From the NCBI GenBank assembly GCA_947561395.2, contig OX387184.1, positions 31,734,766 through 31,798,765 on the forward strand: a stretch of 64,000 nt of DNA, written 5' to 3'. The notes under the pieces were generated by a model, which saw only the letters and a list, made by a program, of their open reading frames with translations, was not told the DNA's origin and did no database searches. Both the position numbers and the translations under genes were made by a program. The DNA comes from Buxus sempervirens. Lineage: Eukaryota > Streptophyta > Magnoliopsida > Buxales > Buxaceae. This document shows positions 20,562-62,360 of this stretch, piece after piece. Each line of letters starts with the position of its first letter. The first letter of the stretch is position 1.

Positions 20562-20693
20562 GTCTTGGATATCATGCCTCAGATCCCAACATCGGTTGGT
20601 GTCATGTCCTGGTGCCCCTGAGTGGTACTCACATCTCTCATTAGGATTGTAATTCTTGCCAATGAATGTTCTAGGATTTGGTGACTTGATTCA
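20562..20693 (-). other. gag-pol junction with a single in-frame TGA
   Basis: Gag ends ...LLKGGYL then TGA (20,691-20,693). The same frame continues without another stop through a CCHC-like segment (CEYHSGAPGHDTNRC) into pol at 20,561. Gag and pol are thus one frame interrupted by one codon. It may be a leaky stop, a real gag terminus, or a recent mutation. Confidence 0.8.
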
Positions 20694-22004: not shown

Positions 22005-22228
22005 ATCCAGTCTTTTGCGAGATCGAAGATTGTATGGGCTTCTTGGAGCAATTTTGGATACCTGTTGATCATTTTGCAGAAGTTAGTGCATTTCTTTGGC
22101 AATTAATCATATATACATATTTTTATGTTTTTTTTTTTTTTGCCATGGTCAATCGAGATCAAAATTTGTGATTTGATTTAGCTGTGTGGAAACAACGTAG
22201 GGGGAATCTATAAAAATGTATCATTTTT

Positions 22229-22652
22229 AGTTGCACAAAGGCAATTGGGAGAGAAAACCTAAAGAAATGATCTATTTTAGCTGCGCAAAGACAACTGGGA
22301 GAGAAAACCCTATGTCTACTGGTCTGTCTTAGTCGTCTATGGACAACTAGGAAAGAGAACCCAAGGTAGTGATCTATTTTAGTTGCACAAAGGCAACTGG
22401 GAGAGAGAACCCAATGTCTAGTGGTCTGTTTTAGTCGTCTGGTGGACGACTGGGAAAGAGAACCCAAGGTAGTGATCTATTTTAGTTGCACAAAGGCAAT
22501 TGGGAGAGAGAACCCAATGTCTAGTGGTCTGTTTTAGTCGTCTGGTGGACGACTAGGAAAGAGAACCCAAGGGATTGATCTGTTTTAGCTGCGTCAAGTC
22601 AGCAAGGAAAGAGAACCTAAAGAATTTGATCTATTTTAGTCGCTTACGACAA
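22229..22652. repeat. Array of about nine stem-loops in the E3 leader
   Basis: About nine ~52-bp units lie between ORF1 and gag. Each has a hairpin flanked by constant text (GAGAACCCAA... and GATCTATTTTAG). Two stem types alternate: AGTTGC/GCAACT (22,381-22,398; G-T wobble at 22,229 and 22,484) and AGTCGTC/GACGACT (22,433-22,452 and 22,536-22,554; one pair is G-U in the sense strand at 22,331). The outer units are degenerate. A ~104-bp higher-order period is visible. Confidence 0.8.
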
Positions 22653-22730
22653 GGAAATAGAACCTCTTGGCTCATGCCCTAATGAACCGGAGCTTGCTTA
22701 TAATGAATTGAACTCAAATATCACGGGATT

Positions 22731-23035
22731 GGACTTATGTCTCCGCAGGGGGTGAGCTAAAAACAACACCCGGGCTCACCCAGCTGGTCTCCGATTTAAG
22801 AATCGGTCGCCAAGTGCCACAATTTTTGGACTTATGTCTCCATAGGGGGTAAGCTAGAAAGCAAATACCCGGGTTCACCCAGTTGGTCTCCGATTTAAGA
22901 ATCGGTCACCAGGCACCACCATTTTTGGACTTATGTCTCCATAGGGGAAGGGCTAAAAAATAGCCGCCTCCGGGCTCATTTGAAGGGTTGGTCTTGATGG
23001 GGCCACCTTCAAACGCCACCAATTTGGATCGTTGG
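22731..23035. repeat. Three ~100-bp tandem repeats with hairpins, E3 leader
   Basis: Three units each start GGACTTATGTCTCC. The first two carry CCGATT/AATCGG (22,791-22,806 and 22,890-22,905). The first also has GGTGAGC/GCTCACC (22,751-22,757 with 22,774-22,780). The third replaces the stem with TTTGAAGG/CCTTCAAA (22,979-22,986 with 23,006-23,013). Confidence 0.75.
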
Positions 23036-23421
23036 ATCCAGGGCAAAAACCGAGTGATCTTGTAAATAATGCATTCGGGTGTGATCTGAGTTCAATCCAT
23101 GAGCGCTTTAAGAAACGCCTATAAGTATTAATATTAGGATAATTAAGGAGTAGGATTTGAAGGAAGGGATCTAATATGACCAGAAATCATGATTTTGTAT
23201 AACTGGAAAGAGAGAGAGTCACTTAGGACCAAAAGGCAATATTAACTTTACAACAAGCATCTGCAAACTAATTTCTGTTTCTTCATTTCCATTCAAAATT
23301 AAAATTAAAGCATTAAACTGAAATAAAAACATATGCATAAATTATATCACAAAAAAAAAAACAAACATGGCTCAAAATACATCAAAGTTAGGTCCAAAAA
23401 CGAAAGCATCCTAGCCAATGT

Positions 23422-26267: not shown

Positions 26268-26285
26268 TCCCCAGCAGAGTCGCCA
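26268..26285 (-). promoter_or_regulatory. E3 primer binding site, tRNA-Arg type
   Basis: The plus strand reads TCCCCAGCAGAGTCGCCA, which looks like a tRNA-Arg 3' end including CCA. The minus (sense) strand therefore pairs with that tRNA. It lies three bases from the LTR end at 26,289. A tRNA-Arg primer is known for Ogre/Tat elements. Confidence 0.88.
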
Positions 26286-26288
26286 AGC

Positions 26289-26596
26289 TGTGCGCACCTC
26301 GGGCGCGCGGAAAAAGCGCGTTACAATCTGTTATAGAGTCGCCACTACCTGAAATGGTGCAGGTAGACACCTTGTTGATTTTTGGTCTGCACCAGTGATT
26401 CCGGTTAAGTGACCCGATTACAACCTAGGGAAGTCCTTGAACACCCTGGGTTGTCCCATCGAAATGGATTCCCTTAAATTAGTTGGATATTTAATGAGCT
26501 CTCTTATTTATTATTTTTATTTTTTTCTTTTCTAATTTTTTTTCATTTTAAGCGTACAACAAATATTAATCTATATGTACATGGCCTCCACAAAAT
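26289..26596 (-). repeat. E3 5' LTR remnant: last 308 bp only
   Basis: Identical by eye, and equal in length, to 10,489-10,796. It abuts the PBS as a 5' LTR should, but stops after 308 bp. The TATA box and promoter part of the 5' LTR are absent. Confidence 0.93.
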
Positions 26597-26621
26597 GTGT
26601 GAAGATCAGCACAATCTCTGT
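26597..26621. other. Junction filler in E3
   Basis: 25 bp join the U5 remnant to the inverted block. Read on the minus strand, ATTGTGCTG(T/A)TCTT occurs twice, once in the flank and once in the filler. The filler thus looks copied from the adjacent sequence. Confidence 0.7.
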
Positions 26622-28092
26622 AAGAACAGCACAATGAGAACAAAGCAGAGCAGTAAATGAGTTTGACAAAGCCAAAATGGATTGAATAGAAGCTGAAGGG
26701 TTCGGACTAGCGGAATGTGTCTGAGTCAAAGCTTCACTGGCCCGTGATGACAATGATACTGAAAATGCCAAGTATACCAAGTCCCGTTTGGCCCTTGGGA
26801 CCGATCTTTTAAGACTGAAAGCACGTGCACACACAGACACGTTTGCAATGCTTTGTTTACGTCAGCTTATACTTTTTTTTGAACTTATTGTGCTATTAGC
26901 CTCAGTTGACAGGTTCATAACCCCAATGAAGGCCGCCCACTTCTGCAGTGGACCATGCTAAAAAAAATTAATAATAATAATAAAAAAAATAATAATAAAA
27001 ATATATTTTTTTTTACTTCCTAATAAACAATGATTAATTGATCTTCTTTTTCTCAGGAGCAAATAGGCAAAGGGAAAGAGAAGCAAACAAGGGGAATCCG
27101 CCACAAAGAAGATGAGTACACTCAAAAGGACACACAAGCTTCTCATCCAAGACCCCACCAGAGAATGCCGAAAAAAAAAGCAAGAGAGGTGACACCTTCC
27201 TCTACAAATGCCCAGTGGAGTTTCCTCGTCGAGAAGAGGTGATTACCCAACAGAAGAAGAGTACCAATTGAAGGGAGAGACATTGTCAGAACATGAGAAC
27301 CTCAGATAGGCGAAATAACAGCGCCATTCTACATAGAGACACACTGGATGAAACAGGATGACAGATGAGAAGGTTCTCATAAAATTCTCAAAAGAATTTT
27401 CCTTTAAAAGGGAGTTTTACAAATCCCAGTGGAGAATCATCAAGAACAATAAAGCTCAGGCAAGCTCAAGACCAAGAGGAGAAGACATGTTTTGAAGATT
27501 TAAAGGGCAGAGAAGGCCCTCATGTAATTTTCATTTTCCCACTTTTGTATCATAGGATTTGAACCAGGATTCGGATTTCCTCGGTGTGCTGGGCAGCAGT
27601 GACTCTTAGCCAAATAGAGTTAGGGGTAGTGCACCTACATGGGGGATAAAGAATTTCAAACTTAAAAAAAAAAAAAAAAAGGTAATAATAATAATAAAAC
27701 AAAATAATAAAAAATAATAATAAAAAAATAAATAATAAAAAAAAGTGAATAAATCTGAAAAGATAAAAGAAGAAGTCAAAAGTCAATGGAATAAACAAGA
27801 AGAAAAGAGCATTGTTGAAGCACTTTTGCATCAACGCCGAAACAAGTCGGTGAGTCTAAGTCCAATCCATCATTTTCAACTTAAACTAAAAAAGGGGAAC
27901 AATTCCAAACGCCCAATGGCAAGGAAATTCCCCAGAACTTAGAAGTGAGCTAAAGCAACGCAGAGCTTGCACCGGCGCTTCCACATCTTTGAAAACATTA
28001 AAGGACTTGACTCGTCGGTTATGTCGACAGAAATGCAAAATGCAAAAATAGGGTTCTTTTTATTCTTTGTCATTCATCACCTTGGTGACTCT
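26622..28092 (+). repeat. E3 inverted copy of the 3' non-coding region
   Basis: Reverse complement of about 12,538-14,003, near-identical with a few substitutions and homopolymer length changes. It precedes a PPT and LTR in the plus orientation, as if it were the 3' end of a second, oppositely oriented element. Confidence 0.9.
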
Positions 28093-28108
28093 GACAAAGA
28101 GGGGTAGC
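28093..28108 (+). promoter_or_regulatory. PPT of the inverted E3 arm
   Basis: GACAAAGAGGGGTAGC directly before LTR start TGTCAGCACC. It differs by one base from the left copy. Confidence 0.8.
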
Positions 28109-30143
28109 TGTCAGCACCCCATTTTTGCACTATAAAATTGCCCAAGAAGCATATCTTAAACTGGCATATATGTGGGCACGTAAATCGAGGTTTTTATAGT
28201 GGACCCATCTTTTTGAAATAACAAGCCCATAACAAAGAGAATTCTTAACCGATTCCGATGCACCGAACCATGCTCAAATCGGATGTCAGACGGCTAAGTT
28301 ATGAATAAAATAAATAAAGGGTAGTTTGGGGATTTTTACAAAACCGAAATTGGATGACACATGGCAGCCACGTGTACACCATGGTGGCTGCCATGTAACC
28401 AATGACAAATTAAAATTTTGTGGGGTTGTTTTAGTAAATAATTAAGTTTCCTAATGGGGTTTCTTATGCAAATAAATAACAAAGTTAATAAAAGATTAAG
28501 ATTAAAAAAAATAATAATAATAAAAATAAACAAAGAGAAATGAGTTGGACGAATTGGTCCAACTCATATTCTCTTGAGATATTGAAACTAAACCTAAAAA
28601 ATATAAGCCTAATAAAAATGGGGGACAATATAGACTTTGACCAAACCTAAATGAATGAAGGGTTTAAGAGAGGAATAGGAGTTAGGAGTTAGGAGTTAGG
28701 AGTTTAAGTGTTTAAGAGGAGAAGTTAAGAAAATGAGAGGTTTAAGAGAGGAAGAGGAGGAGTTAGGAGTTTAGGTGTTTAAGAGAGGAGTTAGGAGTTT
28801 AGGTGTTTAAGAAAGGAGTTAGGAGCTTAGGTGTTTAAAAGGAGAAGTTAAGAAGTTGAATGGGTGAGAATCCTCTATAAAAGGGCTTGAAGTTGAGAGC
28901 AAAAGGGGAGGTAGGAAGAAGTGGAGAAAAGAAGAGGGACGTCTACTAGCAAGGAGGGAGAAAGGAAAACTGCTGTTCACGACACACCAAGGCTCCAAGA
29001 CTTGATTTGAAGTGTCAATCCATAACAGGTGAGTCATTTGTTTAATACATTGTATGAGACCTCTCTTTCATTACAATTTTTGAGATAAGATTACATGATT
29101 GATGAGAGACATGTATATATGTTTGATGGCTTTGGGTAATTTTATCATGTAAAAAAAAAAAAAAGACAAAGATGTAAAGTTCTGAATTTTTTTCCTGCAT
29201 TAGGTTTGCACCTGTTTTCCAGATAAACTAATTTTTTTCACCTTGTTCTAGTTTGATTCAATTCTGGAGTCCTTCATGAGATTTGTGGTATTTTTATTTT
29301 AGTTTAATCTAAAAATACGCTCGAGACCTTACACTATGAGTAGGTATTTTATTTTTAATTTTCTTTGGTTCAGATTTTCAATTGGAAATGTATAACAGTA
29401 ACTTTTGGAGTTTCATATCTCTTAAATGAAAATGAATTTTTGAAAACTGCTATAGGTTATTTTAGTGTTTAAAGTCATGATTCTAAGGAATCAAATTTTG
29501 CACAATTTGGTTAAGAATTGAGGGAGATATGAATCTTTGAATGTGGATAGCGCAGTAATTCAGGTTGTTTCATTTTGTTTGTTTCCTTTGTAAATTAGTA
29601 ATTAGGCCATGGTTAAAAGTAGTTCAGGTGGTCTCATTTTCTTACTTTGTAAATTAGTAATTAGTTAATCTTGCATGATAAAAACAATAGAAAACAAAAC
29701 AAAACAAAAAATAATAAATAATAAGAAAGGGAAAAAGCAAATGAAACAAGCATTGAAGCGATGATTCTTTCTTGTGGTTGAAAATTGTTTTAGCATGGTT
29801 TTGTTTTGTTCATATGGTTTTACTTTCAATGTAATTTTGTGGAGGCCATGTACATATAGATTAATATTTGTTGTACGCTTAAAATGAAAAAAAAATTAGA
29901 AAAGAAAAAAAATAAAAATAATAAATAAGAGAGCTCATTAAATATCCAACTAATTTAAGGGAATCCATTTCGATGGGACAACCCAGGGTGTTCAAGGACT
30001 TCCCTAGGTTGTAATCGGGTCACTTAACCGGAATCACTGGTGCAGACCAAAAATCAACAAGGTGTCTACTTGCACCATTTCAGGTAGTGGCGACTCTATA
30101 ACAGATTGTAACGCGCTTTTTCCGCGCGCCCGAGGTGCGCACA
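28109..30143 (+). repeat. E3 right LTR, inverted relative to the left LTR
   Basis: 2,035 bp from TGTCAGCACCCC to GGTGCGCACA, abutting the TSD. TATAAAAG is at 28,876-28,883 and splice donor CAG|GTGAGT at 29,026-29,034. It is in plus orientation, whereas E3's genes are minus. Its transcripts would leave the element rightwards into E2. Confidence 0.92.
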
Positions 30144-30502
30144 GTGTCAAACATGCGCTCCACTCTAGCCACCCAGCTCTCCGTCTCCAACGGATCTGGA
30201 ACTCCATAAAATGGCGGGGTAGTCAGCTTCCTGAACTGATCGATGTCCCTCAAGGACAACTCCTCTCTCACCCGCAGCTGATCCACTGCAGCTCAATGAC
30301 CATTTCGCTGGCCATTTCCATTCCCAGTTTGACTCATCCTTTCCTCCCTCTCCATCGCAAGGAGGTGGGCAAGTGAGCCAATTGCAGCCCAAATGTCCTC
30401 CACTGGTGGTGGGGCTCCCCGTGGTGGTGTAGGTGGCTGCTCCTGTGGTATATCCCCCTCTGGATAATCCACAGCCCTCGCACGTCTGCCTCTACCGGCC
30501 AT
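30144..30502 (-). pseudogene. E2 gag N-terminal part
   Basis: The ATG at 30,502-30,500 starts MAGRGRRARAVDYPEGD, matching the start of E4 gag. An in-frame TGA at 30,293-30,295 breaks it. The frame then continues through DIDQFRKLTTPPFYGVPDPLE...RVERMFDT to the E3 insertion at 30,144-30,148. The rest is at 10,488 and below. It would be the capsid N-terminus. Confidence 0.88.
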
Positions 30503-30640: not shown

Positions 30641-30653
30641 ATCTCTGATACCA
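30641..30653 (-). promoter_or_regulatory. E2 primer binding site, tRNA-iMet type
   Basis: The minus strand reads TGGTATCAGAGAT, the usual initiator-tRNA-Met PBS of plant gypsy elements, four bases from the LTR. Confidence 0.85.
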
Positions 30654-30657
30654 TCTA

Positions 30658-33067
30658 TGTAACGCCCCGGATCCGTGTTGTTCAATAAAGATATAACACG
30701 TCTCACGGAGTTTAGGCAAGGATCGATAATTAAATATGATCGCTGGATAATCATCTAACTATAACCTGTCAGAGTGCACAATTTGATTCATCCAAGAAAT
30801 GTAACGTTTAGACTTAACTAGAAACATATGGTTCAACCCCCAAATAGATTTTAATACACCTCAATTATTCAAAGTACTCAAATTCAGAACAAGATAACCT
30901 ACAAGTCTAAGGAAGGTAATAGTAATCTTCCTCCCTATAAGCCTCAGCAGGATCTACCCCAATAGTCGCCTCACCACGAGTATCTGAAAATCACAACAAA
31001 ACAATAGAGTGAGATACGAATATCTCAGCGAGTAGCACATGCATGCCGAAATAGTTAATCACAGTTCAAAGCTATGCATCGATAAACGTTCCGTACGATG
31101 AAACAACTCATATCAGAATCAAGTTCAAACCAAAACCCATCTCATCGGTCAAATTACATCTCAGTTAAGTACGACAACACATCGATCGGTCAATGTCATG
31201 ACTATTGTTTAGTTGATAAATTAAACATGCCAAGTAGACACTCCACACCTCCATGTACACAGTTCCGGCCTACTCAGGGTTTCGGAAACTCTGAAATGAC
31301 GGCCTACTCAGGGTTTCGTCATCCAATGCAGGCCTACTCCCCGGGTTTCTGCATTGACAACCAAGCCTACTCAGGGTTTCTGGCTGCTCTACACCGGTCG
31401 TGGCAACACACAAGGCCATGCAATTCCAACAACCAACAAATAACATTACATTACTAAGCTTAGACTCTGGATCCAGGACAAGCTAGACCAAAACAGTAAA
31501 ACATCGTATAATCTCAATTTCACATTTAAAGTAAAAACCATTCATTCCACATCATGTATATCTCATCATAATTCATCACCTGTCCCTCTGGACCAAACAG
31601 TATCCCAATACTTTCAGTATTTCTCATTTCCACAAAACCATGCCATTTGAATACAAACACAGTTATTTATAACAAGACAATACATTTCAGCATTTCCCAA
31701 AACAAATGAAACCAGAAGTCAATCATTTCTCAATTAGAACAGTGTATAAGTTCGAGGAGAAAACTACTAAGAACTCCTAGAGTTTTGGTATCCAGCACAA
31801 TCATATATAAAATAACCCACACTCATCTTGGAAACTTTTAAGAATTTGCCACTAGAATTCTCCTAGGAATTAAATAAGAAATGCAGGTTCCAAGGTTACC
31901 AACAAGTGATTGGTGAAGCGATATAAACCCCAAGACATCAAAATCCCCCTTGGTTCAGTCGGAAATCAAATTTGGTAAGTTAAATTGGGTATGCGCTCAC
32001 TTCCTGAAGTGAGCGCCAATCGGCGGATAGAAAATAGGTGGAAAAGGACCATGCGCTCACTCGACGCTAAGTGAGCGCGAGCTGAGCGGGAGAAAGGCGC
32101 GAGCTAGGCGCGAGAAAAGCGCGTCGGTTTCAAGTAGGCGCGAGCTGAGCGCCAGGTAGGCGCGAGCTCGGCGCCAGATCGAATTTCCTAGGCGCCTACT
32201 TCCCGAAGTGGGCGCAAGTGGACGCCAAGTGGGCGGATACCCACTGCGAATTTCGAGTCTCTGTTATTTCAAGATCTCCAACTCTGGCTTGTTTCTTTAG
32301 GTCTGTTATTGCTCAATTACACTCCTAATGCTCCCAGAAGACTTCCCAACCCATTTTGGATTTAATCTAAACATCTTTAATTTCACATTAATTTTCAATC
32401 TTCGTTCGTAACTCGTGGTATCCCAAAAAAACACAGAACTCACAATACGACCATGCATTTCAAAATACATTACGAATAAACTAAAACCTCGGTTTTAAAA
32501 CAGTGCTACTCACCAGTATGCGCTTAATCCCAGGACAACAGCTTCTTCCCCAACCGGCTGATCGCGATTTCCGGCTGCGCGCGAGGAATCGACTGTAGTT
32601 GATATATCCCCTGTTCGCGAGAATAAATAACCGACTGAATCTCTATCTCCGACTCGAACTATCCGATCGCAGCTACTTGCACCTTTCGTTCTTCTCAGCA
32701 AAACCCTAATCGCCACACCAGAGCCGCGAATCGCCAAGTCGCCCAACTTCTTCAGCAAACAAAAGTATTGCCAAAAGTATTCATACGAGTATTCTATAAA
32801 CCCAAACCCTACTTTCCCTTTTTGTATATTTACCTTGCGATACATACGCCGCCTGATCAATCTTTAACTCCTTGATCCTATGCGTGCTCGCCCACTGGAA
32901 ACTCTACATGTTCCGCATCCACTTATGTTAATAAGCACACAACTATACTTTAATAATAATAATAATAATATAATTTTTCAGAAAAACGGCTATATAACGC
33001 CTGTACATACGAGTATGGGCTAAGCCCTCAAACCACAACCTGATAAACACAGTTTATATATCAAAAA

Positions 33068-33098
<31 letters not shown>

Positions 33099-48377: not shown

Positions 48378-50128
48378 CTTTAGTACGAAGAACCTGCTCC
48401 TTCCTGTTCAAAATCTCAACTGGATGTTACTCATAAGTCAAGTCCCCTCGCACTACTATCGGCTCATGCTGAATGATATGAGTAGGGTCATGCACGTACT
48501 TCCTCAACATAGAAACATGGAATATGTCATGAACTCCTTCTAGCTGTGTAGGCAAAGCCAATCTGTATGCTACTGGTCCCACTGTACCCTTAATCTCAAA
48601 TGGACCTATATATCTTGGAGCCAACTTGCCTTTCTTTCCAAATCTCTTAATCCCACGAGATGGTGATATCTTCAGAAATACAAAATTACCAACCTCGAAA
48701 TGCAAATCTCTCCTTCGGGTATCTGCATAGCTCTTCTGACGACTCTGGGCTGTAAGCATATTCTGCCTAATCTGATTTACCTTCTCAATGCTATCCTGTA
48801 CAATCTACGGCCCAATAAGTTGTCTTTCTCCAACTTCCACCCAGCACACTAGGGATTTACACGGTCTGCCATAAAGTGCCTTAAATGGTGCCATCTAAAT
48901 ACTTGCTAATAGCTATTATTATAGGCAAACTCCACCAATGGTACGTGCTGATTCCAACTGCCTCCCTAACCCATAACACAACATCTTAGCATGTCTTCCA
49001 ACGTCTGAATGGTACGCTCAGATTGTCCATCTGTCTGGGGATGATAGCTGGTGCTGAAATTAAGCTTAGTGCCTAAGGCTGCCTGAAATGCAAGCCAAAA
49101 GCGTGCCATGAATCGTGCATCTCTGTCAGAAACTATGGAAACTGGCACTCCATGAAGTCTCCCTATCTCCTTGACATATAGCTCAGCTAAAGACTTCAAC
49201 TGCTGTGTAGTGCTAATAGGCAAGAAATGCGCTGACTTAGTCAGTCTATCCACAACAACCCAATTAGCATCTTCCTTCTTGACTGTCAATGGTAACCCAG
49301 ATACAAAATCCATGGTCACATGTTCCCACTTCTACTTTGGAATAGGAAGTGACTGAAGTAAACCAGGTGGTTTCCGATGTTCAGCCTTCACTTGCTGGCA
49401 TGTCAAGCACTTAGCCACATACTCTGCAATCTCTCTCTTCATTCCTGACCACCAATAGATTTCTTTCAAGTTTTTGTATATCTTTGTACTTCCTGGGTGA
49501 ACTGCATACCTCGATCTATGACCTTCTGTCAATATCTTCTCCTTAATCTCCTCATCAGCTGGAACACAAATACGGCCTCTATATCTCAATAGCCCATCTC
49601 TATCTGAAAAGTCTGCAGCTGCCTCAGATCCTCTACTCATCATCTCCCTAGTCTGAATCAATTGTGGGTCAGTCAACTGTCTCTCCCAAATCAACTAAAC
49701 CAAATATGGCTCAATCTGAACACGAGCAACTCTGATCACTCCATCCTGTGGCATGCTAAACTCTCCCTGCCAATCTCTGACTGAATCAACCAATCTACAC
49801 TAGCTCATTATAAAATCTGCTAAAGTGGCTACCTGATTCTCAACTGCACTTTTTCTGCTCAAAGCATCAGCCATTACATTTGCTTTACCAGGGTGGTATT
49901 GCAAAGTGAACTTGAAATCCTTTAGCAGATCCATCCACCTTCGCTGCCTCATATTCAAGTCTCTCTGTGAAAACAGATTTCTCAAACTCTTATGATCAGA
50001 AAAGATCTCAAACTCTACCCCATAAAGATAATGCCTCCACAGCTTCAGTGCGAAGACTATGGCTGCTAACTCTAGATCGTGAGTAGGGTAGTTCTTCTCG
50101 TGCGGTCTCAACAATCTCGAAGCATACA
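48378..50128 (-). pseudogene. E4 pol middle: RNase H end and integrase, degraded
   Basis: Fragments in several frames. 50,129-49,800 carries the RNase H part ([26 protein letters not shown]). 49,694-49,332 carries the HHCC region (HRSRYAVHPGSTK...CLTCQQ). 49,319-48,966 carries the integrase core ([25 protein letters not shown]). 48,759-48,427 carries the GPFEI...[13 protein letters not shown] region, ending at a stop in LTYE. Similar throughout to E2 integrase. The upstream end is cut by E6. Confidence 0.88.
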
Positions 50129-50544
50129 TGTAGATACCCCAAATTGCACTAAAAATGAGAAAATAATTGAAAATATTAATTGGGATTTGAAACAGGTCAA
50201 AAAAGTGTAAAATCTGGCCAAATTGGTCATGACCGTATTTTGTCTACGGACTGGTCATACCTGCAGTTGATATACGGTCACGGCGTGCCCGTATTAATAA
50301 TACGGGCAAGGCGCGACCGTAATATATATACGGGCACGGGGGTCTTTGTGCGAATTTTACCTTTTTGATTTTTGAGCCTTATCTGCACCCAAATATCTCT
50401 CTTGGATAAGCGAATTTTCTTATTTATCTGTTCGAATTATCTCATTTATCCTTGTGGATAAAGGATTGGCATGATCTTGTGTTTAACTCAAACTGAAACT
50501 CTATCTTGCCAAAACCTTGGACCAACCATGCCCCTGGGTTTGCC

Positions 50545-50552
50545 TATAAATA
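50545..50552 (+). promoter_or_regulatory. E6 TATA box
   Basis: TATAAATA followed by AGAGG, in the middle of the LTR and about 100 bp before a consensus splice donor. The 3' LTR has the same. Confidence 0.75.
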
Positions 50553-50646
50553 GAGGCTTTCTCCTCTAGCTTAGGGCCACGAAATTTTGAAGAATCAAAA
50601 GCTCCAAGAGAAGGAAAAGAACCCCTGCTGCTCTGCCTGCTCAATC

Positions 50647-50655
50647 CAGGTAAGT
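50647..50655 (+). promoter_or_regulatory. Putative leader splice donor in E6 LTR
   Basis: CAG|GTAAGT, a consensus 5' splice site about 100 bp after the TATA box. The partner acceptor is proposed at 54,208-54,212. Confidence 0.55.
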
Positions 50656-51946
50656 CCCCTATCCCTTTTTATTTTCTGTCTTCAATTCTAGATGTAATAG
50701 GATCATCTCTATTGCTGTAGAATAAGGCCATATCTGTTTTTGTATTCCTAAACTTGTCTCTAAGTACCTCAAGGGTCTCTCTAGCCGTAAAACGTGAAGA
50801 GAGAACTAGGGGAAAGGGGAACAGGTGGATCCCTAGAATAGAACCCCATATCTGTTTTTCTCTTTTTCATAGAATAAAGCCTCTGATTGTGTTTGTGTAA
50901 CCAAACCTATCTACAAGTACCTCAAGAGTCTCTCTAGCCGTAAAACGTGAAGAGAGAACTAGGGGAAAAGAGAACAGGTGGATCCGTAGGGTAGACCCCA
51001 TGTGCTCTAATTTGTGAGATGTGGCTATTTTAAATATCCTGATCATGTTTTAATGCTTTTTATGATATATCTGAATGAATTACATGAATCTATGATGTTT
51101 ATAGCATGAGATCCCCTATTTTTGCCAAAATTTGGATTTTTGCCACTTTTGCACCTATAGCACTGTTTTCGTGATTTTTGTGATTTTAGGCTAAGATCTT
51201 GGATTTATCATGATCAATATGATAGATCTAAATCCAGAAGCCTAAAAGTAAATTCTAGGGTTTCATGAGATGATTTTTAAATTGTTTTTCATTATTGAGA
51301 TAAGACCCTACGGTCTTAGTTCTCCCCTTTTGGTGTTTTTCACCAATAAAGGTATTTTTGGTTTTTATTTTCTGATTTAACGTGAAATTTGGGCTTTATC
51401 TATATCCTGGACTGTTCAAGTTCAATTTTGAAATATTTTATAAAAATCATATTTTTCTAGATTTCTAGAATTTTGACTTGAAACCAGATTTTTGGGATTT
51501 TTCACTTTAAATTGATTTTATTTGATTTTATCTCAATTTTATTTTGATCATGAAACCCTAGGAATGGTATGATCATGTTTGATAGTTCTGGATCAATCAG
51601 ACTATTCATATGAAAAAACCATATATTTTTGCTTTTTTTTGTGATTTTTTCATGATTTTTATAGCAAGCTTTTTCCTTAATTTTAACATGAACCAATACC
51701 TGGCAACCACCTTGTGTGGATGAATAGGGGTGCCTAACACCTTCCCCTGTTCATTACCTAATCCCCTTACCCATCTCTGGTTGTTTTTTTAGGAGGGATA
51801 TTTTGCCCTAAAATTGCCTTTTGTGCTTATTTAATATTTTGGTGTCCATTCACACCTAAATTGAATGGTGGCGACTCTTTGCTTTGTTTAATCCCGTGTG
51901 ATGATTGAGGAAATCATTAGATTGATTTTTTCCCATGTCTCACAAC

Positions 51947-51964
51947 TGGCGACTCTGCTGGGGA
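51947..51964 (+). promoter_or_regulatory. E6 primer binding site, tRNA-Arg type
   Basis: TGGCGACTCTGCTGGGGA, two bases after the LTR. Exact complement of the E3 plus-strand PBS. Confidence 0.9.
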
Positions 51965-53182
51965 CTTGTGGATTTGAGCCTTTTGGTGTTTCAGTTCATG
52001 ATTTTGATATTTTTGGATTTGCTTGCTATTTTGTGTTCTTAAGCATGATGGGTATGTTTTAAATCTGAATTATTGCTTAAGAATTCATGGGGGTAGAAAC
52101 ATGCTTAATTTTGATTTATAGGATTGTTTCTACAAACATGCGTAGGGGAGGTCCGTTTTGCTGAACCATGCTTATTTTTTGCTATATTTTTATGATAGCA
52201 TGTTTTAATTTTCAACATGATCTCCATGATAATTTTGGGTGTATAACATGATCATATGTTTGCATGATTAGATATTTTTTATGAGCATGTTTTAGGTGCT
52301 ATAGGATTGCTTTATTTACTTGTTTATTTTAAATATGCTTTCCTATTATGCCTTGGTTTGTTTATGCATGGCTGCGAAAAGAGTGGCAAGGGTTTGGGAC
52401 GTTGTGAATGCACCCTATTTTTACAATGCACTGTGCACCTTTTGTTTTTACACAGCCTACCCTTAACCTATAGGAAGTTAAACCCGACTGTGTGTAGCTT
52501 GGCGCAACGAGGTTGATACTTCGGAAAGCGAAAGTGAAAACATTCACCTTAGAACTTTGAGCTAATGATGTGATGATAACGTGGATCTGGGATTCTGGTC
52601 ATCACTAGGCTTGAGTGCTAAGTTGCCATTAAGCCAAAACCCAAAACCCCTACGCTTGAAGGTGGAGTTACACGTTTTTGGCTAAATTACACAATTACGG
52701 GGGAATATGGGGTTGTATGATTGAGGGAAGGCCGTGTGCATGGCTTACAAACCAGGGCATAATGCGGATGCTATATTCAAGGTAAACAAGGTAACAAGGT
52801 AATCCTATTGTTTTACATTATTTTCATGTCATAGGGGTGTCATGGTGCCCATTGGTTCGGGATAAAATTGGTCCCAAAATATGCATATTTTCTAAAATTG
52901 GTGCAGCCCATAGGAAGAGTCTCTCACTCTATTTAGAATCAATCCTATCCAATGTTCATGTAAGAGTCAACAAAAGGGTGCCAAATTCTTGAGTATGGTG
53001 TCAAGTTGGAGGGTACATGTGCCCTCCCAAGCATGTGTTTTTACAAATAGGCCAAGGTCCACTTTGGGACAGTTTAGAAGCTCTGCACTGGGTGAACCGT
53101 ATGTTTGGATGAGCAATTAAAGTGATCAAACCACTAAAAACTGGAAAAATATAACAGGGTTCCGTAAAACCGCATTTAGTAC

Positions 53183-53286
53183 ACGGGCTGGGCTTGCCCG
53201 TATTTGTTATATGGGCTAGGCTCGCCCGTGTTTTCCATACGGTCACGGCTTGCTCGTAATTTGAATACGGGCAGGGCTGGACCGTA
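53183..53286. repeat. ACGGGC/GCCCGT hairpin cluster, E6 leader
   Basis: ACGGGC/GCCCGT (53,183-53,188 with 53,196-53,201), GGGC/GCCC (53,213-53,230) and TACGGTC/GACCGTA (53,238-53,244 with 53,280-53,286). The words match those of the LTR island at 50,231-50,333. Confidence 0.75.
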
Positions 53287-53462
53287 CTGTGTATACGGTT
53301 TTCTCGGAATATTCAACTTTAATCAGTTTTTTTCCACTAAAATCTTCCTTTAACTTTTAAATAATGATAAAGGGAAACAAGTTTGAATAAAAGGCTTAAA
53401 AAAAAAAACAAACAAACAAAATAATTAAAAGAAAGAAAATGTGAGAGAAAAGTTCCTTGGGC

Positions 53463-54078
53463 TTCTGAAAGCCTTTGAATTTCAGACTTTTTCAAAACTC
53501 TTGGGCTTCTGAAAGCCTTTGAATTTCAGATTTTTCAAAAAAAATCCTGGGCTTCTGAAAGCCTTTGAATTTCAGATATTTCAAAAAATTCCTCGGGCCT
53601 CTGAAAGCCTTTGAATTTCAGACTTTTTCTCAAAAAAACTTTTGGGCCGTCTAAAAGCCTCTGAATTTTAGACAAACCTTTTCTTTGGGCCGTCTAAAAG
53701 CCTCTGAATTTTAGACAAATCATTCCTTTGGGCCGTCTAAAGGCCTCTGAATTTTAGACAAATCATTTCTTTGGGCCGTCTAAAAGCCTCTGAATTTTAG
53801 ACAAATCATTTCTTTGGGCCGTCTATAAGCCTCTGAATTATAGACACATATCCTTTGGGCATCTGAAAGCCTTTGAATTTCAGACTTTTTTCAAAAATAT
53901 CCCTGGGCCTCTGAAAGCCTTTGAATTTCAGACTTTTTTCCAAAAATATCCCTGGGCCTCTGAAAGCCTTTGAATTTCGGACCTTTTCCAAAAATACCCC
54001 TGGGCCTCTGAAAGCCTTTGAATTTCAGATCATTTTCTCTTTTTGTGGGACCTGTTGGAAGCCCTAGAATATTCCAAC
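53463..54078. repeat. Tandem array of 14 stem-loops with changing stems
   Basis: Period is about 42-50 bp. Units 1-4 and 10-13 have TCTGAAA/TTTCAGA. Units 5-8 have GTCTAAAA/TTTTAGAC (unit 7 one pair shorter). Unit 9 (about 53,821-53,845) has GTCTATAA/TTATAGAC. Unit 14 (about 54,054-54,078) has GTTGGAA/TTCCAAC. The loop (GCCTTTGAA or GCCTCTGAA) and the leading TGGGCC are nearly constant. Unit 12 has a G-U pair. Confidence 0.88.
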
Positions 54079-54207
54079 AATTCAATTCAAAAAAAAAAGA
54101 AGAGAAGCAAATAAAGAAAAAATCCAAACTCGTGTTCACCCAGCTTGCACATAGGCAGTCCTAGGCATGTGAATGAGATTAATTGGGCACTGATATTTTT
54201 TCCTTTA

Positions 54208-54212
54208 TTCAG
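54208..54212 (+). promoter_or_regulatory. Putative splice acceptor before E6 gag
   Basis: TTTTTTCCTTTATTCAG then GTACCAAG, a pyrimidine-rich tract ending in CAG, 54 bases before the likely gag ATG. The E3 gag has a similar CAG|GTATCC. Confidence 0.55.
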
Positions 54213-54266
54213 GTACCAAGTACACTTGCAACCATCACTCCTGTAACCAAATCAAGAGCTCGCGCC

Positions 54267-55945
54267 ATGAATCCCATTGAGAATGAAGCTGATGCTCCTC
54301 ACCCAGATATTGTCCTGCTTCAGGAGCAGGTGGCAGGACTAGCCCGAATGCTAGAGAACATACTATCGGTGCAGGCCCAACAAGTTCAAGCCCAGAACCA
54401 AGCACCTCCACCTCCAATCAATATCCCACCTCCGGTTCAACCTATTCCTGAACCCATTTCTGAACCTACCCCTGAACCTATACTGATCAGGGAGGAGATG
54501 GTTGAGTCTGAGAAAGAGAATGAAAAAGAAAAGATGAGGGATGAAATAGAAAGAAAATTCATGCACAGGCTGGAGATGATCCAGGATGAAATGAGGGAGT
54601 GAAAGGGATACGTAACTTTGGGGGCACCAATTTTGAAGATTTGTGCCTATACCCCAATGTATGCTTACCGGCCAAATTCAAGTGTCTGGATTTTGATAAA
54701 TATGATGGCACTGGCTGCCCAATGAGCCATTTGAAGTTATACTGCGGGGCTTTATGCCAGTTTGGCCGGGATGACGGCATACTAATTCAACTCTTTCATA
54801 GGAGTTTAACTGGAGCTGCTTTGAGGTGGTTTACCACTTTGGATCATGGGAAAATAAGAAGGTGGAAGGATTTAGCAGATTCCTTTTTGGCACAATACAA
54901 GTTTAACTCAGAGATCGTGCCAGACCGGTACGACATGATGAGGATGAGCAAGAGAAATGATGAGACCATAAGGCAATATGCTAAAAGGTGGAGGGAGTTG
55001 GCTGCACAAGTCAAGCCACCCATGGGAGAACCAGAAATGATTTCAACTTTCATCATGACATTGGGGCAACCATTTTACAGTCACTTGGTAGGTCAAACTA
55101 CCACCAACTTTGCTGCCCTAGTGCAAGTGGCAGACAGAATTGAAGATGGGATCAAGTTTGGGAAAATAGCTGATTACTCTGCAGTGTTGAACCAGGAAGC
55201 TTCCACCACTTTCTCTACACAGAAAAAGGAAAATGGTAATGGAAGAAGAAAGAATGAAGAAAGGAGAGAAGCAGAAGTGAATATGGTACAACTTCCCAGG
55301 GAACCCTTTCAAATCAATGTCCATCCACCTCCTATCAAGCCAACCCATCAAGTTCCTTTGATGCCTATCCAAATTAATGTCCCTTTTGCACAGCCTGTGA
55401 AGGAGGAAACAGAAGTAAGGAAGAGAAGGGAATTTTCTAAACTGCCTATGAGACCATTTGAACTTTTGCCTACCTTACTTCAAAAGGGTTACGTGACTTT
55501 GAGGTTGCCAAATCCTCATGCAAGCAAAGGGAAGGGTTATGATTCATCTGCAATATGTGATTATCATATGAGCAATCCAGGGCATACCACAGATCGTTGC
55601 TTGGACCTAAAGCATGCAATTCAGGATTTGCTGGATAATAACTCTTTATCATTCAATTCAGTCACTCCCATCCCACCTACCGATAACAATGGGGCAGGTA
55701 GCTCAAATGCAATAGGGGCAATTTTTTCTGGAAAAAGAAGATTTGACCCTTCTCAGCTTATCGCTCCTATTGGTCCAACAGTCAGGGTTTATCTTGAAAT
55801 AAATTCTCCTGGTTATGAGCAGGAAGGCTTGCCTTACTCAGTAGGAGAAAGAAAGTATCTGAAAAAGGGAGAAAAGTCAATTTTTGCCTTTGAGAACAGG
55901 GGCAGTTTTCGAACTCCCATGTTCTCTGAAAAGAAACCTGCATAA
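54267..55945 (+). pseudogene. E6 gag, one frameshift, pol absent
   Basis: The likely start ATG is 54,267 (context GCCATGA; MNPIENEADAPHPD), because upstream codons in this frame fall before the proposed splice acceptor. The first frame ends EMRE with a TGA at 54,600-54,602. The capsid domain continues in another frame from about 54,599 (NFGGTNFEDLCLYPNVCLPAKFKC, RSLTGAALRWFTTL, QYAKRWRELA, TLGQPFYSHLVGQ), so one small indel separates them. Near the end come CDYHMSNPGHTTDRC and FDPSQLIAPIGPTVRV, which in E3 lie just after the TGA, then a stop at 55,943-55,945. No protease or RT follows. The 448-residue second part is otherwise clean. Confidence 0.88.
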
Positions 55946-58900
55946 GAAGAATGCACATTTCCTGAGGATCCTAAGGAGCCTTGTTCTCAGGAAGTGATTT
56001 TAATAAAGGCTCTTCAAAAAACAAAAGATTTTTCCCTTTTACATTTTTCTAGAAAAAAAAAAGAGTTTTCAGCAAGGTCCTTTTACTTATGAATCATATC
56101 TCTTATTGAATTTCATTGAGTTGAATATGACTTTGACATTGGGCTCAATTTTGAGACCAAAATCGAAGAAAAAGACATTTTATATGAAAATTCAAATCTT
56201 TTTAAGTGTCATGAGAAGAATATTCTGCAAAATTATGAAGTGACCAATTTTATGGCCTTTGGAACCAAAGATGACCCATAGTCTTCAACAGAAAAGATAG
56301 AAGAAGATTTGAAGTTTCTTCATTAGAATACAGAAAGGATCGCACCACTTGCTGATTCGTTCAAAGGGAAGTTGAGAATATTGTTTGAAGAAATTTTGGG
56401 GGCTTTGCACTTGAAAATATGGGAGAATCTGACCTTTTCGTTGGAAATAGAATTGGGCATCATTTGATGGAAAGAATCCAAATTCATAAGATTGATCAAA
56501 AGGTGAAGAACTTGTTCATAACATAAGTTTTATTTAAAGAGGCTTTCATGTTGACAGAAGGTGATTAAGAAGAAAAAAAAAAGAAAAGAGAAGAAAAATC
56601 CTGAGCCAGTCATGTAGTGCAACTCTACCAAGTCTAAAATTCAAATTTTTCTTAAAATGATAAGAGGCCTTTCTTTCTTATATCCCCAAAATTTTTGAAA
56701 TCCCTAGTTAAACCCTTTGAGCTTGATACATTTTTCCAAGTAACCTAAACTGAGAATTGTAACCCCACACTGGGGCAAATTTATTAAGGCATAAAAAAAA
56801 AAAAGAATGAAGGGACAATTATTGAAGTTCAAAAGGGATTTTGAATATGTTTTCAGAAGATAATCAAATGCTATTTGGAGAATGTCTTCAAAATTGTGAA
56901 GAAAAGAATGGAAAAAAGAAGTTCAATACTGGAGAATATGTTTTAAATGAAGAAATCAAATTGAGAGAAGAACTTCATTACTGGGGCAATTTTGTATTCA
57001 TTCCAAGGGAAGAAATGCCTTAAAAATTACAATTTCAGTTAACCCATTTGATCATATGGTATTTGAGCCTTTTATTCCTTTTCTTTCTAAACTAACACCA
57101 AGCCTTCGTTTCGTCCCATTCATAAGTCCTCTTTGATTAAGAAATTTTGAATTAAGGCAGTTTTGACTACATGGTTGCTGGTGATGAAGGATTAAAAAAA
57201 AGAAAAAATAAAAAAAAAAAAAAGAAAAAAGAAGAAGAAAAAAAAAAAGGAAAAAATGGAGAAAATGTAGTGAAAACCCGGAAGGGCGCTACATGGCAAA
57301 TAATCAGCTATCTACAAGAAGGAAATCGTTAGAGTGGAAAGCCCAGAATTGGCACAGATCCAAGTGAAATCTTCATGTTGGTGGTTATTTTGAGATACAT
57401 CCACTCTTCAAGTGATTGAGAAAAATTCTCTTTTCAAGACTGAAGCAACATAATCAAAACTATGGTATGAATCATCTGTGAACAAGTTGATGGCCATCAA
57501 AATTGCCATTAGGAAATTATTGCTGAAGTTGAAGTCATAAATTCTCATATCATGGATACAATGGAGAAACAATTGTTCTTCAATTGGATGAAGGAAGATG
57601 TCTTTCTAGACTGGGGCAAAATAGTCAGATTGAAAGAGTTGTCATATCAGGAGCATTAATTGACAAGTCGATGGTCATGGGAATGATTCTAAAGGTTCCA
57701 AAGGTTGATTTTGGTCTTTCTGTATTTTCTGAAATAATCTTCTCATTATTCAACTTGATTTTAATTCTTTTGGACTATATGCTAATAAGTGATTGGATCA
57801 TTTTTTCAAAAAAAAAAAATATATAAAAACACAAAAAAGGCAAAAACTATATTTTTGGCCTATGATGAGAATCTATATCTTTTCATAAAACATTGGTTTT
57901 GCAAGCATTAGAGAATTCTGAGGCCACTAGTATAAAACATATTTTCTTATATTTGCATTTGAATTTGCATTCTTCTATTAGGGTTTCTTTTTGGCAAAGG
58001 TTAAAAAAAAAAAAAAAAGAAAAAGAAAGAGAAAAAAAGAGGAAAAGAAAAAAAGAAAAAAAAAATAAAAAGGAAAAAAGAGGATCATCTCTACTGAGGG
58101 GCAAATACTTCTTCAAACAATCAAAACCGGGGCATGCTCAATGTCTTTCCTTCTGGGTTTTCATTGGAATGAATTCCAACATCTGGAAGAAGCAATCAAG
58201 CTTTAGTCTTCGAATTTGAAAGAAAAAAAAAAGGCTTCGAAGCAATTGCATGTTTTCTCTGTTAAACAAGGGTTCCCAATTCTTCAATCATGAAGAAGGA
58301 TTTTACTGGGGCAGCAAGAAGGCATGAAAGACAAATCAAGGGTTGTAAAGGCATGAGGTTAGATCAACAGATCATGATCCATCAATCAAGATGGGGGCAT
58401 TCACTTGGGCAATTAAAAAGCATGAAGACAGGTTATAGGCAGTAAGGGCACATACATCATTATTGAGAGAGCAAGAAGATAAAGAAGCAAAAGCAAGTTG
58501 CAAAATATTCAAGCACAGGTTCGGGCATCAAATGGCACCCAGGTATATCAAATAAGAAAATCAATCAGGAAAATTCAAAAAGTGAAAAACATCAAAATCA
58601 ATTGAGTTTGCAGTGGTCAATTTTAAATCCACATTATTTTCAAAAATTGCTTGTCTCAGATTTCTTTTTATAGCCACGAGAGCTCCAAGAAATCTGAGAT
58701 AAGGAAGAGACGCCACCCCACTTCAAGCAGGGGTTTCATTGGCTATCTTCGAATCCATGTTTTTATCATTTCTTTGTTGGATCAAAGCAAGTTCAATTAA
58801 TGAGATATTTTTCGAATGTGTAATTTTGAGTTGTGTCTGTTTTTTGCTGTTCATTATGCTACAACTGCAGGCCACCCAGAAAAATTGTCTTTTTCATCAT

Positions 58901-59205
58901 TTTCTCCACACTTTTCAGGAGATCAATGTTTATATTAGTTGTAAGTTGCAAGGATTGCCACCTTACCCACTTTTGTTTAAAAATTTTGTCTCAAATCTCA
59001 CTTCATAGCCCACAAGTGCTCAGTGAGAGGAGAGAGGAGGATTTGCCCCTTAAGCTGAGGGACTTTTAGCAAATCTTCCGCAATGAATTATTTTTCCCAA
59101 CATCATCTTTTTAATCCTTGCAAAGTGCAATTAGTCAGACAAAGATCTCAAAAAGTGCAATTAGTGGGTCTTTTTACTCTCTGCTAATAATTGGTTCCAA
59201 TCACC
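55946..59205 (+). other. E6 3' non-coding region in place of pol
   Basis: 3.3 kb with no RT, RNase H or integrase motif. Four exact ACTGGGGCA words (56,769; 56,990; 57,610; 58,305) and related ones, and two long purine tracts (about 57,194-57,262 and 58,002-58,085). Small lysine-rich frames come from the purine runs. Confidence 0.75.
58002..58085. repeat. Purine-only tract in E6
   Basis: About 80 bases of A and G with almost no pyrimidine. A second such tract lies at about 57,194-57,262. Confidence 0.85.
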
Positions 59206-59222
59206 AGCAAAGAGGGGGCAGC
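59206..59222 (+). promoter_or_regulatory. E6 polypurine tract
   Basis: AGCAAAGAGGGGGCAGC directly before LTR start TGTAGACACC, parallel to E3. Confidence 0.85.
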
Positions 59223-61037
59223 TGTAGACACCCCAAATTGCACTAAAAATGAGAAAATAATTGAAAATATTAATTGGGATTTGAAACAGGTCAAAAAAGT
59301 GTAAAATCTGGCCAAATTGGTCATGACCGTATTTTGTCTACGGACTGGTCATACCTGCAGTTGATATACGGTCACGGCGTGCCCGTATTAATAATACGGG
59401 CAAGGCGCGACCGTAATATATATACGGGCACGGGGGTCTTTGTGCGAATTTTACCTTTTTGATTTTTGAGCCTTATCTGCACCCAAATATCTCTCTTGGA
59501 TAAGCGAATTCTCTTATTTATCTGTTCGAATTATCTCATTTATCCTTGTGGATAAAGGATTGGCATGATCTTGTGTTTAACTCAAACTGAAACTCTATCT
59601 TGCCAAAACCTTGGACCAACCATGCCCCTGGGTTTGCCTATAAATAGAGGCTTTCTCCTCTAGCTTAGGGCCACGAAATTTTGAAGAATCAAAAGCTCCA
59701 AGAGAAGGAAAAGAACCCCTGCTGCTCTGCCTGCTCAATCCAGGTAAGTCCCCTATCCCTTTTTATTTTCTGTCTTCAATTCTAGATGTAATAGGATCAT
59801 CTCTATTGCTGTAGAATAAGGCCATATCTGTTTTTGTATTCCTAAACTTGTCTCTAAGTACCTCAAGGGTCTCTCTAGCCGTAAAACGTGAAGAGAGAAC
59901 TAGGGGAAAGGGGAACAGGTGGATCCCTAGAATAGAACCCCATATCTGTTTTTCTCTTTTTCATAGAATAAAGCCTCTGATTGTGTTTGTGTAACCAAAC
60001 CTATCTACAAGTACCTCAAGAGTCTCTCTAGCCGTAAAACGTGAAGAGAGAACTAGGGGAAAAGAGAACAGGTGGATCCGTAGGGTAGACCCCATGTGCT
60101 CTAATTTGTGAGATGTGGCTATTTTAAATATCCTGATCATGTTTTAATGCTTTTTATGATATATCTGAATGAATTACATGAATCTATGATGTTTATAGCA
60201 TGAGATCCCCTATTTTTGCCAAAATTTGGATTTTTGCCACTTTTGCACCTATAGCACTGTTTTCGTGATTTTTGTGATTTTAGGCTAAGATCTTGGATTT
60301 ATCATGATCAATATGATAGATCTAAATCCAGAAGCCTAAAAGTAAATTCTAGGGTTTCATGAGATGATTTTTAAATTGTTTTTCATTATTGAGATAAGAC
60401 CCTACGGTCTCAGTTCTCCCCTTTTGGTGTTTTTCACCAATAAAGGTATTTTTGGTTTTTATTTTCTGATTTAACGTGAAATTTGGGCTTTATCTATATC
60501 CTGGACTGTTCAAGTTCAATTTTGAAATATTTTATAAAAATCATATTTTTCTAGATTTCTAGAATTTTGACTTGAAACCAGATTTTTGGGATTTTTCACT
60601 TTAAATTGATTTTATTTGATTTTATCTCAATTTTATTTTGATCATGAAACCCTAGGAATGGTATGATCATGTTTGATAGTTCTGGATCAATCAGACTATT
60701 CATATGAAAAAACCATATATTTTTGCTTTTTTTGTGATTTTTTCATGATTTTTATAGCAAGCTTTTTCCTTAATTTTAACATGAACCAATACCTGGCAAC
60801 CACCTTGTGTGGATGAATAGGGGTACCTAACACCTTCCCCTGTTCATAAGCTAATCCCCTTACCCATCTCTGGTTGTTTTTTTAGGAGGGATATTTTGCC
60901 CTAAAATTGCCTTTTGTGCTTATTTAATATTTTGGTGTCCATTCACACCTAAATTGAATGGTGGCGACTCTTTGCTTTGTTTAATCCCATGTGATGATTG
61001 AGGAAATCATTAGATTGATTTTTTCCCATGTCTCACA
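59223..61037 (+). repeat. E6 3' LTR
   Basis: 1,815 bp, near-identical to 50,129-51,944 and ending CCCATGTCTCACA. Differences include T/C near the start, a T-run length change and a short block near 60,846. Confidence 0.93.
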
Positions 61038-61042
61038 ATATG

Positions 61043-62360
61043 CTATAACTCTGCTCTGCTGCATCAAAACACATCCTAAGCCAATCCTAGAAGCATCACA
61101 ATATACTGCAAATTCCTCATCCATGGATAGCACAATCAAAATTGGGGTAGTAGTCAACCTCTACTTCAATTCCTGGAAACTCTGCTCACATTTCTCATCC
61201 CAATGGAATTTCACTGTCTTTTTGGTTAAGTTAGACAAAGGTGCAGCTATACGAGAAAATCCTGCGATGAATCTCCTATAGTAACCTGCCATACCAAGGA
61301 AACACCTGACCTCTATCACTGTAGTGAGTCTAGGCCATTCTGCCACTGCTTTAACCTTCTCAAGGTCCACAGATATACCCTCACCTGAGATAACATGACC
61401 TAAGAATGAAATCTGTCTCAGCCAAAACTGACACTTACTAAATTTCCCATACAACCTGCGGTCTCTCAAAGTGTGCAATACTGCCTTCAAATGCCCAACA
61501 TCTGCCTCTCGGGTCTTAGAATATACTAGGATGTCATTAATGAACACCACTACGAAACTGTCCAAGTATGAATGAAAAATCCTGTTCATGAGGTCCATGA
61601 AAACAGCTGGGGCATTGGTTAGCCCAAAAGGCATAACCAAGAACTCATAATGCCCATAGCGTGTACGGAAAACTGTCTTCTCTATGTCCTCCTTTGATAC
61701 TTTCAACTGATGGTATCCTGACCTCAAGTCTATCTTGGAGAACCAAGATGCACCTTCTAACTGGTCAAACAGGTCATCAATCCTAGGCAACGGATACTTG
61801 TTCTTCATTGTCACTTGATTCAGTTGCCTATAATCGATACACATCCGCATACTACCATCTTTCTTCTGCACAAACAGAACTGGTGCGCCCCATGGCGACA
61901 CACTCGGTCTGATGAATCCCTTTTCCTGAAGCTCATCTAGCTGCTTCTTCAGTTCCTCTTGTTCTGGTTTCACAAGCCGATAGGGTGGCTTTGAAACTGG
62001 AGCCGTACCAGGCATCAACTGGATCCTAAACTCTACTCCTCTAGTAGGTGGTAATCCAGGTAACTCCTCTGGAAACACATTTGCAAACTCTTGAACTACA
62101 GGTACATCGGAGATGACAAGGGTGTCACTTCTCAGCTCCTCTGCTATCACAGATGCTACCAGACCAATTTGCGACTTCAACCCCTCACATTTGAAACAAT
62201 GAGTGGTTTGATCTAGCCCTCTAACAATCACTGTCCCCGCATAGCAATCCAACGTCACATGGTGTCTACATAACCAGTCCATCCCCAATATCACGTCAAA
62301 ACCTCCAATGTCTAAGGCAATCAAATCGCTAGACAACTCCAGTCTACCCAATCTAATCAT
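61043..62360 (-). pseudogene. E4 pol start: protease end, RT, RNase H start
   Basis: A 399-residue open part from 62,360 has [53 protein letters not shown] and [15 protein letters not shown]. The RT active-site box reads [11 protein letters not shown], with Asn in place of the first catalytic Asp of FIDD, so RT would be inactive. It stops at 61,161; the rest (VYCDAS-like and MQQSRVIAY) reaches E6 at 61,043. A TGA separates it in frame from the gag/protease part above. Confidence 0.88.

Follow-up and report, generated by a model that had tools for sequence, protein, structure and literature searches.

The packaging signal (psi) of retroviruses lies downstream of the major splice donor. How the LTR retrotransposons of plants separate messenger from genome is an open question. 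BARE is a worked plant case of such a separation: BARE1 has a spliced gag RNA, in which 104 nt are spliced out within gag, and separate RNA pools (PMC3735527). In Ogre, an intron lies between the gag-pro and RT open reading frames, and both Ogre and Retand, of the Tat lineage, carry a second RNase H (aRH) between RNase H and integrase (PMC6317226); tandem repeats are described in the 3' UTRs of Tat/Ogre elements (PMC7004042). The export element of MusD folds with a pseudoknot and a kissing loop (PMC12786077), and export of unspliced Cer1 RNA uses a protein (PMC10309623, PMC12786077).

The window analysed here, a 64,000-nucleotide stretch of Buxus sempervirens DNA, contains an element (E6) with an array of tandem hairpins in its leader. 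Like psi, this array lies between the primer binding site (PBS) and gag, consists of stem-loops and is part of the RNA that splicing would remove; unlike psi, it comprises 14-49 near-identical tandem units, and the putative spliced product is the gag mRNA itself. As in the 3' UTR repeats of Tat/Ogre elements, the units are short, tandem and variable in number, and the host element probably belongs to the Tat lineage; the E6 array is, however, on the 5' side, in a putative leader intron, and has a palindromic conserved core and a largely fixed layout. E6 would share with BARE1 and Ogre, likewise LTR elements of plants, the use of splicing to give RNAs different fates, whereas its putative intron is a leader of about 3.6 kb that runs from LTR to gag and holds both the PBS and the hairpins. 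No plant element with a tandem-hairpin leader intron was found among the literature titles and openings of abstracts listed, in a search that covered the subscription literature thinly.

The E6 element and its hairpin array

The 5' LTR (50129..51945, + strand) and the 3' LTR (59223..61038, + strand) of E6, delimited by their BLAST match to each other, are 99.56% identical over 1817 positions. The PBS, TGGCGACTCTGCTGGGGA, is located at 51947..51964 (+), and an open reading frame at 54599..55945 (+) matches the Retrotrans_gag domain. In the window copy gag is broken into two frames, the list of open reading frames holds no pol frame of at least 90 amino acids between gag and the 3' LTR, and the five-base flanks of the element are unlike each other (ATACA and ATATG). 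A second element in the window, a Tat element described below, has an 18-nt PBS that is the same in every letter (26268-26285, - strand); these two are the only matches to the 18-mer in the window, allowing up to 3 mismatches. The gags of the two elements are identical at 126 of 298 aligned positions (42%). Because the PBS is shared and the gags are similar, features that support kinship to a Tat element without defining it, E6 is probably a gag-only Ty3/gypsy element of plants within the Tat lineage.

Nine relatives of the E6 gag passed E≤0.001 in a protein search; where a source is named, in four cases, it is a legume. The C-terminal part of gag, in the frame at 54599-55945, reads CDYHMSNPGHTTDRC (C-X2-H-X5-H-X4-C) and, judged by eye, may be a zinc knuckle. 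E6 itself sits within a Ty3/gypsy pol gene of the minus strand, whose RT and integrase parts flank it (48966-50129 and 61161-62360, - strand). A search of Rfam over 49000-62000 gave two weak matches, each under its gathering score.

The hairpin array occupies 53464..54079 (+) and consists of 14 units in the order A4-B4-C-A4-D, the letters denoting stem types. A sequence-only reading of the window had described fourteen tandem stem-loops between PBS and gag, with stems changed on both sides of a constant loop. The number, the place and the four stem types, all of them paired, were recovered; the span proved to be off by one base, and the loop is nearly constant (GCCTTTGAA and GCCTCTGAA, with GCCCTAGAATA in unit 14). 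Stem A (TCTGAAA/TTTCAGA) is found in units 1-4 and 10-13, stem B (TCTAAAA/TTTTAGA) in units 5-8, stem C (TCTATAA/TTATAGA) in unit 9 and stem D (GTTGGAA/TTCCAAC) in unit 14, where the terminal hairpin spans 54053..54079 (+) with the stem TGTTGGAA/TTCCAACA. Between types, as many as four of the seven pairs differ, with complementarity retained: when the arms of the four types were recombined, 1 of 24 combinations was fully paired, and it is the true one. In units 7 and 12 a change in one arm produces G.U on the + strand.

Within the 64 kb, the array is unique in its clustering of perfect hairpins (at least 7 bp, with two or more G/C in the stem; at least three within 120 bases of each other), and among the 12 tandem arrays examined in the window the median shuffle fraction of the unit hairpins is lowest here. 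When units 1-13 were aligned, leaving out unit 14 with its longer loop, 2 of the 7 stem pairs were changed on both sides and no cell was unpaired; two such pairs were reached by 32 of 500 shuffles, and the covariation score by 2 of 500. An open reading frame antisense across the array had no protein relatives in the search.

Outside the genome, the A core had no match in IMG/VR, and tblastn with gag against IMG/VR and prokaryote genomes gave no relative. The loop-plus-arm pattern occurred in 41 IMG/VR stretches, in none of which was the 5' arm within 2 mismatches of pairing. The sole contig outside the genome that contained the PBS 18-mer (L042) was rejected as phage-like from its open reading frames, judged by eye.

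A putative leader intron

Copies of E6 were sought in the 676.5-Mb genome; 40 of 2002 candidates were scored and gave 30 loci, the window copy included. The TATA box of the LTR (TATAAATAG, 50545..50553, +) is unchanged in all 20 of the copies that were fetched, from the 29 others, for comparison of this region. About 100 nt past it lies CAG|GTAAGT, a putative 5' splice site (intron side 50650..50655, +), indicated by a weight matrix as well as by the copies. On this matrix the candidate donor has the maximal score and is the best in 4.2 kb, and TCCAG|GTAAGT is the same in 20 of 20 fetched copies, whereas its surroundings are only 87-94% identical to the window.

Candidates for a branch point (CTGAT), a pyrimidine tract and the 3' splice site (TTCAG|) lie together at 54190..54212 (+). 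The start of gag was found in 26 copies, the search pattern having missed it in 4 of the 30 (L051, L052, L054 and L055), and AG|GTAC is present in 24 of these; the two exceptions read CAG|GTAAC and CAG|TTACC. The pyrimidine tracts vary in sequence and length, and a branch-point motif following the CTRAY rule occurs in 22 of the 24 AG|GTAC copies. Donor and acceptor are thus both conserved across copies, the pattern looked for in a spliced leader intron.

The gag ATG (54267..54269, +) is the first ATG past the acceptor, and the leader between the two is free of ATG in 24 of 24 copies. With the transcription start site assumed, the unspliced leader of 3693 nt contains 72 ATGs and the two exon parts contain none. 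The exon leader looks noncoding because its length is 53 or 54 nt, differing between copies. For the same reason, a difference of one base between copies, the fusion of ORF1 to gag by splicing, an idea prompted by the upstream similarity of a Mucuna protein seen by eye, was set aside for E6. The end of the hairpin array is about 130 nt before the acceptor. Both the PBS and the array are inside the putative intron, and they would therefore exist only in unspliced RNA if splicing occurs as we infer.

We propose, tentatively and with slightly less than even confidence, that splicing removes the hairpin leader from the gag messenger of E6 and that the array marks the unspliced RNA as genome. Transcription would begin shortly past the TATA box of the LTR, and the transcript would meet the strong 5' splice site at about the distance given above. 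Splicing from this donor to the acceptor before gag would take out about 3.6 kb, with the PBS and the whole array, leaving an RNA whose short leader has no ATG before that of gag. The unspliced RNA would retain the PBS and 14-49 near-identical hairpins, and the array might tag this genomic RNA for packaging, dimerisation or export. Most probably, Gag or a host factor for export or packaging would bind the repeated hairpins and their loops multivalently. Comparison of the copies supports this proposal, in that the splice signals are conserved, the hairpin cores are conserved and pairing is kept among the amplified types; splicing, folding of the hairpins in RNA and use of the array as a genome mark are what we infer beyond this. 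Such a leader intron would offer a directly testable rule, by which spliced RNA is message and unspliced RNA with hairpins is genome. The copies of 14 to 49 units would provide a natural dose series, and the conserved core a defined RNA bait for whatever plant Gag or its host partners recognise.

A more specific form of the proposal, possible but rather doubtful, is that an array of variable length with one distinct terminal hairpin, placed in a leader intron, is a multivalent tag of genome identity whose avidity is set by the number of units, which may also form an H-type pseudoknot. Splicing would then erase the tag together with the PBS to give gag mRNA, and RNA that escaped splicing would be recognised as genome.

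Variation and apparent constraint among the genomic copies

A sequence-only profile derived from the units of the window, and hence liable to overlook decayed ones, found 14-49 units per copy across the 30 copies. Its 862 matches yielded 855 aligned units; 49 that lacked stem or loop letters were dropped, leaving 806 for the count of variants, and 73 of the 855 were left out of the column conservation and column-pair analyses, leaving 782. Exact stems A, B or C, all fully paired types, are present in 737 of the 806 complete units, and each of the three occurs fully paired in 29 or 30 of the 30 loci. A D unit was found through its 3' arm in 28 of the 30 copies, with the 5' arm GTTGGAA in all 28; of the remaining two copies, L072 has D with two mismatches and L054 has other DNA after the array. 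In 25 of 30 copies, counted by eye, the last B or C is followed by exactly four A units. Close relatives occur among the copies: L060 and L064-L067, all within 1.6 Mb, have nearly one layout.

The other 69 of the 806 units deviate from these types, in 33 arm combinations. Counted over the combinations, 36 changes are one-sided (13 G.U, 11 A.C and 12 other) and 2 are both-sided, the latter at the same stem pair. Single units account for 23 of the 33 combinations, which may represent damage after insertion; the 10 that recur in at least two loci are one-sided in every case. A strand test by G.U asymmetry had been suggestive in the window units and was abandoned, as the 13 G.U and 11 A.C of the copies show no bias.

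When the 378 column pairs of the 782 units were ranked, stem pair (12,26), the site of the B-to-C change, came first, and within the 342 B and C units it is unlinked to other columns (0.75 bits, against 0.017 for the next pair). Stem pair (11,27) ranks 5-6, as part of a linked set of five columns in which A differs from B and C, and the other five stem pairs rank from 14 to 275. The paired evidence amounts to about five pair differences among four stem types. The sequence-only reading had taken the paired changes to indicate selection for pairing, and had held that one-sided changes as frequent as paired ones in other copies would refute it. It is partly supported, in that the amplified types are paired, pair (12,26) ranks first and cores are far better conserved than spacers; it is not supported by the rare variants, where one-sided changes prevail and the paired change expected of a conserved RNA secondary structure was not the pattern found.

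In a comparison of the last four A units between 30 copies, the 23-nt core differs by 0.29-1.97%, against 9.1-17.7% for the spacers, each compared in 24-29 copies; for the first 150 nt of gag the figure is 10.5% in 26 copies. With four near-duplicate copies left out, the core differs by 0.3-2.3% and the spacers by 10.5-18.1%. The core differs far less than the spacers and the start of gag, and so it looks constrained. The ratio of core to spacer divergence is an upper estimate, because the spacers are rich in homopolymers and readily gain or lose bases, so that their difference is inflated, and because homogenisation among units could depress the divergence of the core.

Homogenisation is also at the heart of an alternative that we consider unlikely, namely that the array is a neutral minisatellite. 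In this view a founding hairpin would have been multiplied by slippage and template switching, which would also have made the units alike, and the paired changes would have arisen when template switching corrected an imperfect palindrome. The range of unit number between copies would fit this explanation, as would the preponderance of one-sided changes among rare variants and the lack of stem conservation in the second element of the window. It accounts less well for cores that differ 9 to 48 times less than the adjoining spacers in the last four A units, and for a block order that is largely fixed at the 3' end, where four A units are followed by D.

By column, the arms differ by 0.71% and 0.58% and the loop by 0.70%, so that stems are no better conserved than loops, which is not what pairing alone predicts. 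The constraint could therefore be on sequence, as in a DNA-binding site. Each unit might accordingly be a palindromic site for a host transcription factor and the array an intronic enhancer, an explanation we regard as distinctly unlikely. TGGGCY and GTGGGNCC in the E6 units resemble TCP-factor sites, stem and loop are conserved alike, and in all 14 window units GGG closely precedes the stem. A second family of palindromes, of 28 bp (TACGGNC..GNCCGTA), forms an array just 5' of the hairpins (53183..53298, +) and recurs upstream of the TATA box in both LTRs (50270-50339 and 59364-59433). Palindromes of this family lie no more than 420 bases upstream of the hairpin array in 28 of 30 copies, the exceptions, L059 and L071, having little DNA there. 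Their stems are nearly constant and their loops variable, the opposite of the main array, which makes them more like a DNA-binding motif. The hairpin stem types, in contrast, differ at several positions and yet stay complementary, unlike a sequence-specific duplex site; GGG is absent before D in 7 of 28 copies, 6 of which have GGAACC there, and the array is about 2.9 kb downstream of the TATA box.

The remaining alternative, that the hairpins export the unspliced RNA or slow splicing to the gag acceptor and have no part in packaging, agrees with the position of the array in the putative intron close to its acceptor and with the need of unspliced retroelement RNA for export elements, as in MusD and Cer1 (PMC12786077, PMC10309623), but with sequence alone it is inseparable from packaging, and we think it very improbable.

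Folding of the units

The thermodynamic support for the hairpins is modest. Local folding of the array in the sense orientation gave z of -2.76 (span 35) and -2.55 (span 60), with 0 and 1 of 100 shuffles as low; antisense values were -1.66 and -2.70, and the sense strand is not the stronger folder at span 60. Folded without a span limit, the whole array had z of -1.58, and 1 of 20 shuffles was as good. The named hairpin formed with a probability of at least 0.5 in 8 of 14 units at span 30, in 7 at span 60 and in 5 without limit. A competing GGGC:GCC hairpin, between the upstream GGGC and the GCC of the loop, wins in units 1, 2, 3, 7 and 10 at span 30.

In 14 of 14 window units the upstream GGGC and the GCCU of the loop could pair in an H-type pseudoknot, which is better than the nested fold in 7 of them according to a rough energy model with a pseudoknot penalty of +9.6. 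The pseudoknot was rejected as a general feature, since five tested units of the second element have no S1 partner and the GGG before D is not fixed. S1 pairings as strong arose from shuffled spacer and loop in 48, 54, 105 and 245 of 4000 trials.

A second Tat element and other features of the window

The open reading frames of the second element (14535-24897, -) encode an ORF1 with a plant mobile domain, gag, RT, RNase H, a second RNase H-like domain and integrase, and RVT_1, RT_RNaseH, RVT_3 and rve are found in that order. The element fits the Tat lineage because its second RNase H-like domain lies between RNase H and integrase, the position by which aRH is defined (PMC6317226).

Its ORF1-to-gag interval contains a comparison array of nine hairpin units of unrelated sequence (22228..22652, -), and the positional likeness of the two arrays, each before gag, is real. 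In the nine units both sides have changed in 3 of 7 pairs, a U.G intermediate exists for each of the three, and 83.9% of cells are paired; 41 of 500 shuffles had three such pairs and 0 of 500 reached the covariation score. Scoring 40 of 1337 candidate copies gave 30 loci (L093-L122). Relative to the window copy, their stems differ by 1.9% and their spacers by 1.2%; in the four most divergent copies, stems differ by 6.7% outside CG and by 11.7% at CG sites, and spacers by 4.5%. Stem changes across the copies are one-sided by 36 to 2, and 29 of these weaken a Watson-Crick pair. Local folding gave z of -4.4 and -4.8 for the antisense strand and -2.6 and -2.3 for the sense strand. The second element gives no support for constraint, because its stems vary like its spacers and its antisense strand folds better; as judged from the copies, constraint is seen in the E6 array alone, the stems of the second element being no better conserved than its spacers.

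A search outside the genome with the spacer pattern of the second element gave no match, and an open reading frame in sense across its array had no protein relatives in the search. Its 3' LTR copy contains a donor-like CAG|GTGAGT 154 bases past a TATA-like site, and the corresponding acceptor has a weak pyrimidine tract.

Most copies of the second-element array (26 of the 30 loci) are 97-100% identical to that of the window, a sign of a recent burst. Between its ORF1 and the array, at 22729-22947 (-), a 99-bp repeat that contains a CCGATT/AATCGG hairpin is present in about two copies. LTR-like segments of the element are located at 10488-14011, 26288-26596 and 26615-30144. Where a direct 5' LTR is expected, the 3.5-kb LTR-like sequence is present as an inverted copy (99.4% identical), preceded by just 309 bp in direct orientation; the inverted copy is a rearrangement or an assembly fault. 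The window also contains a direct duplication of 2.4 kb, 99.3% identical, at 3691-6124 and 30653-33079.
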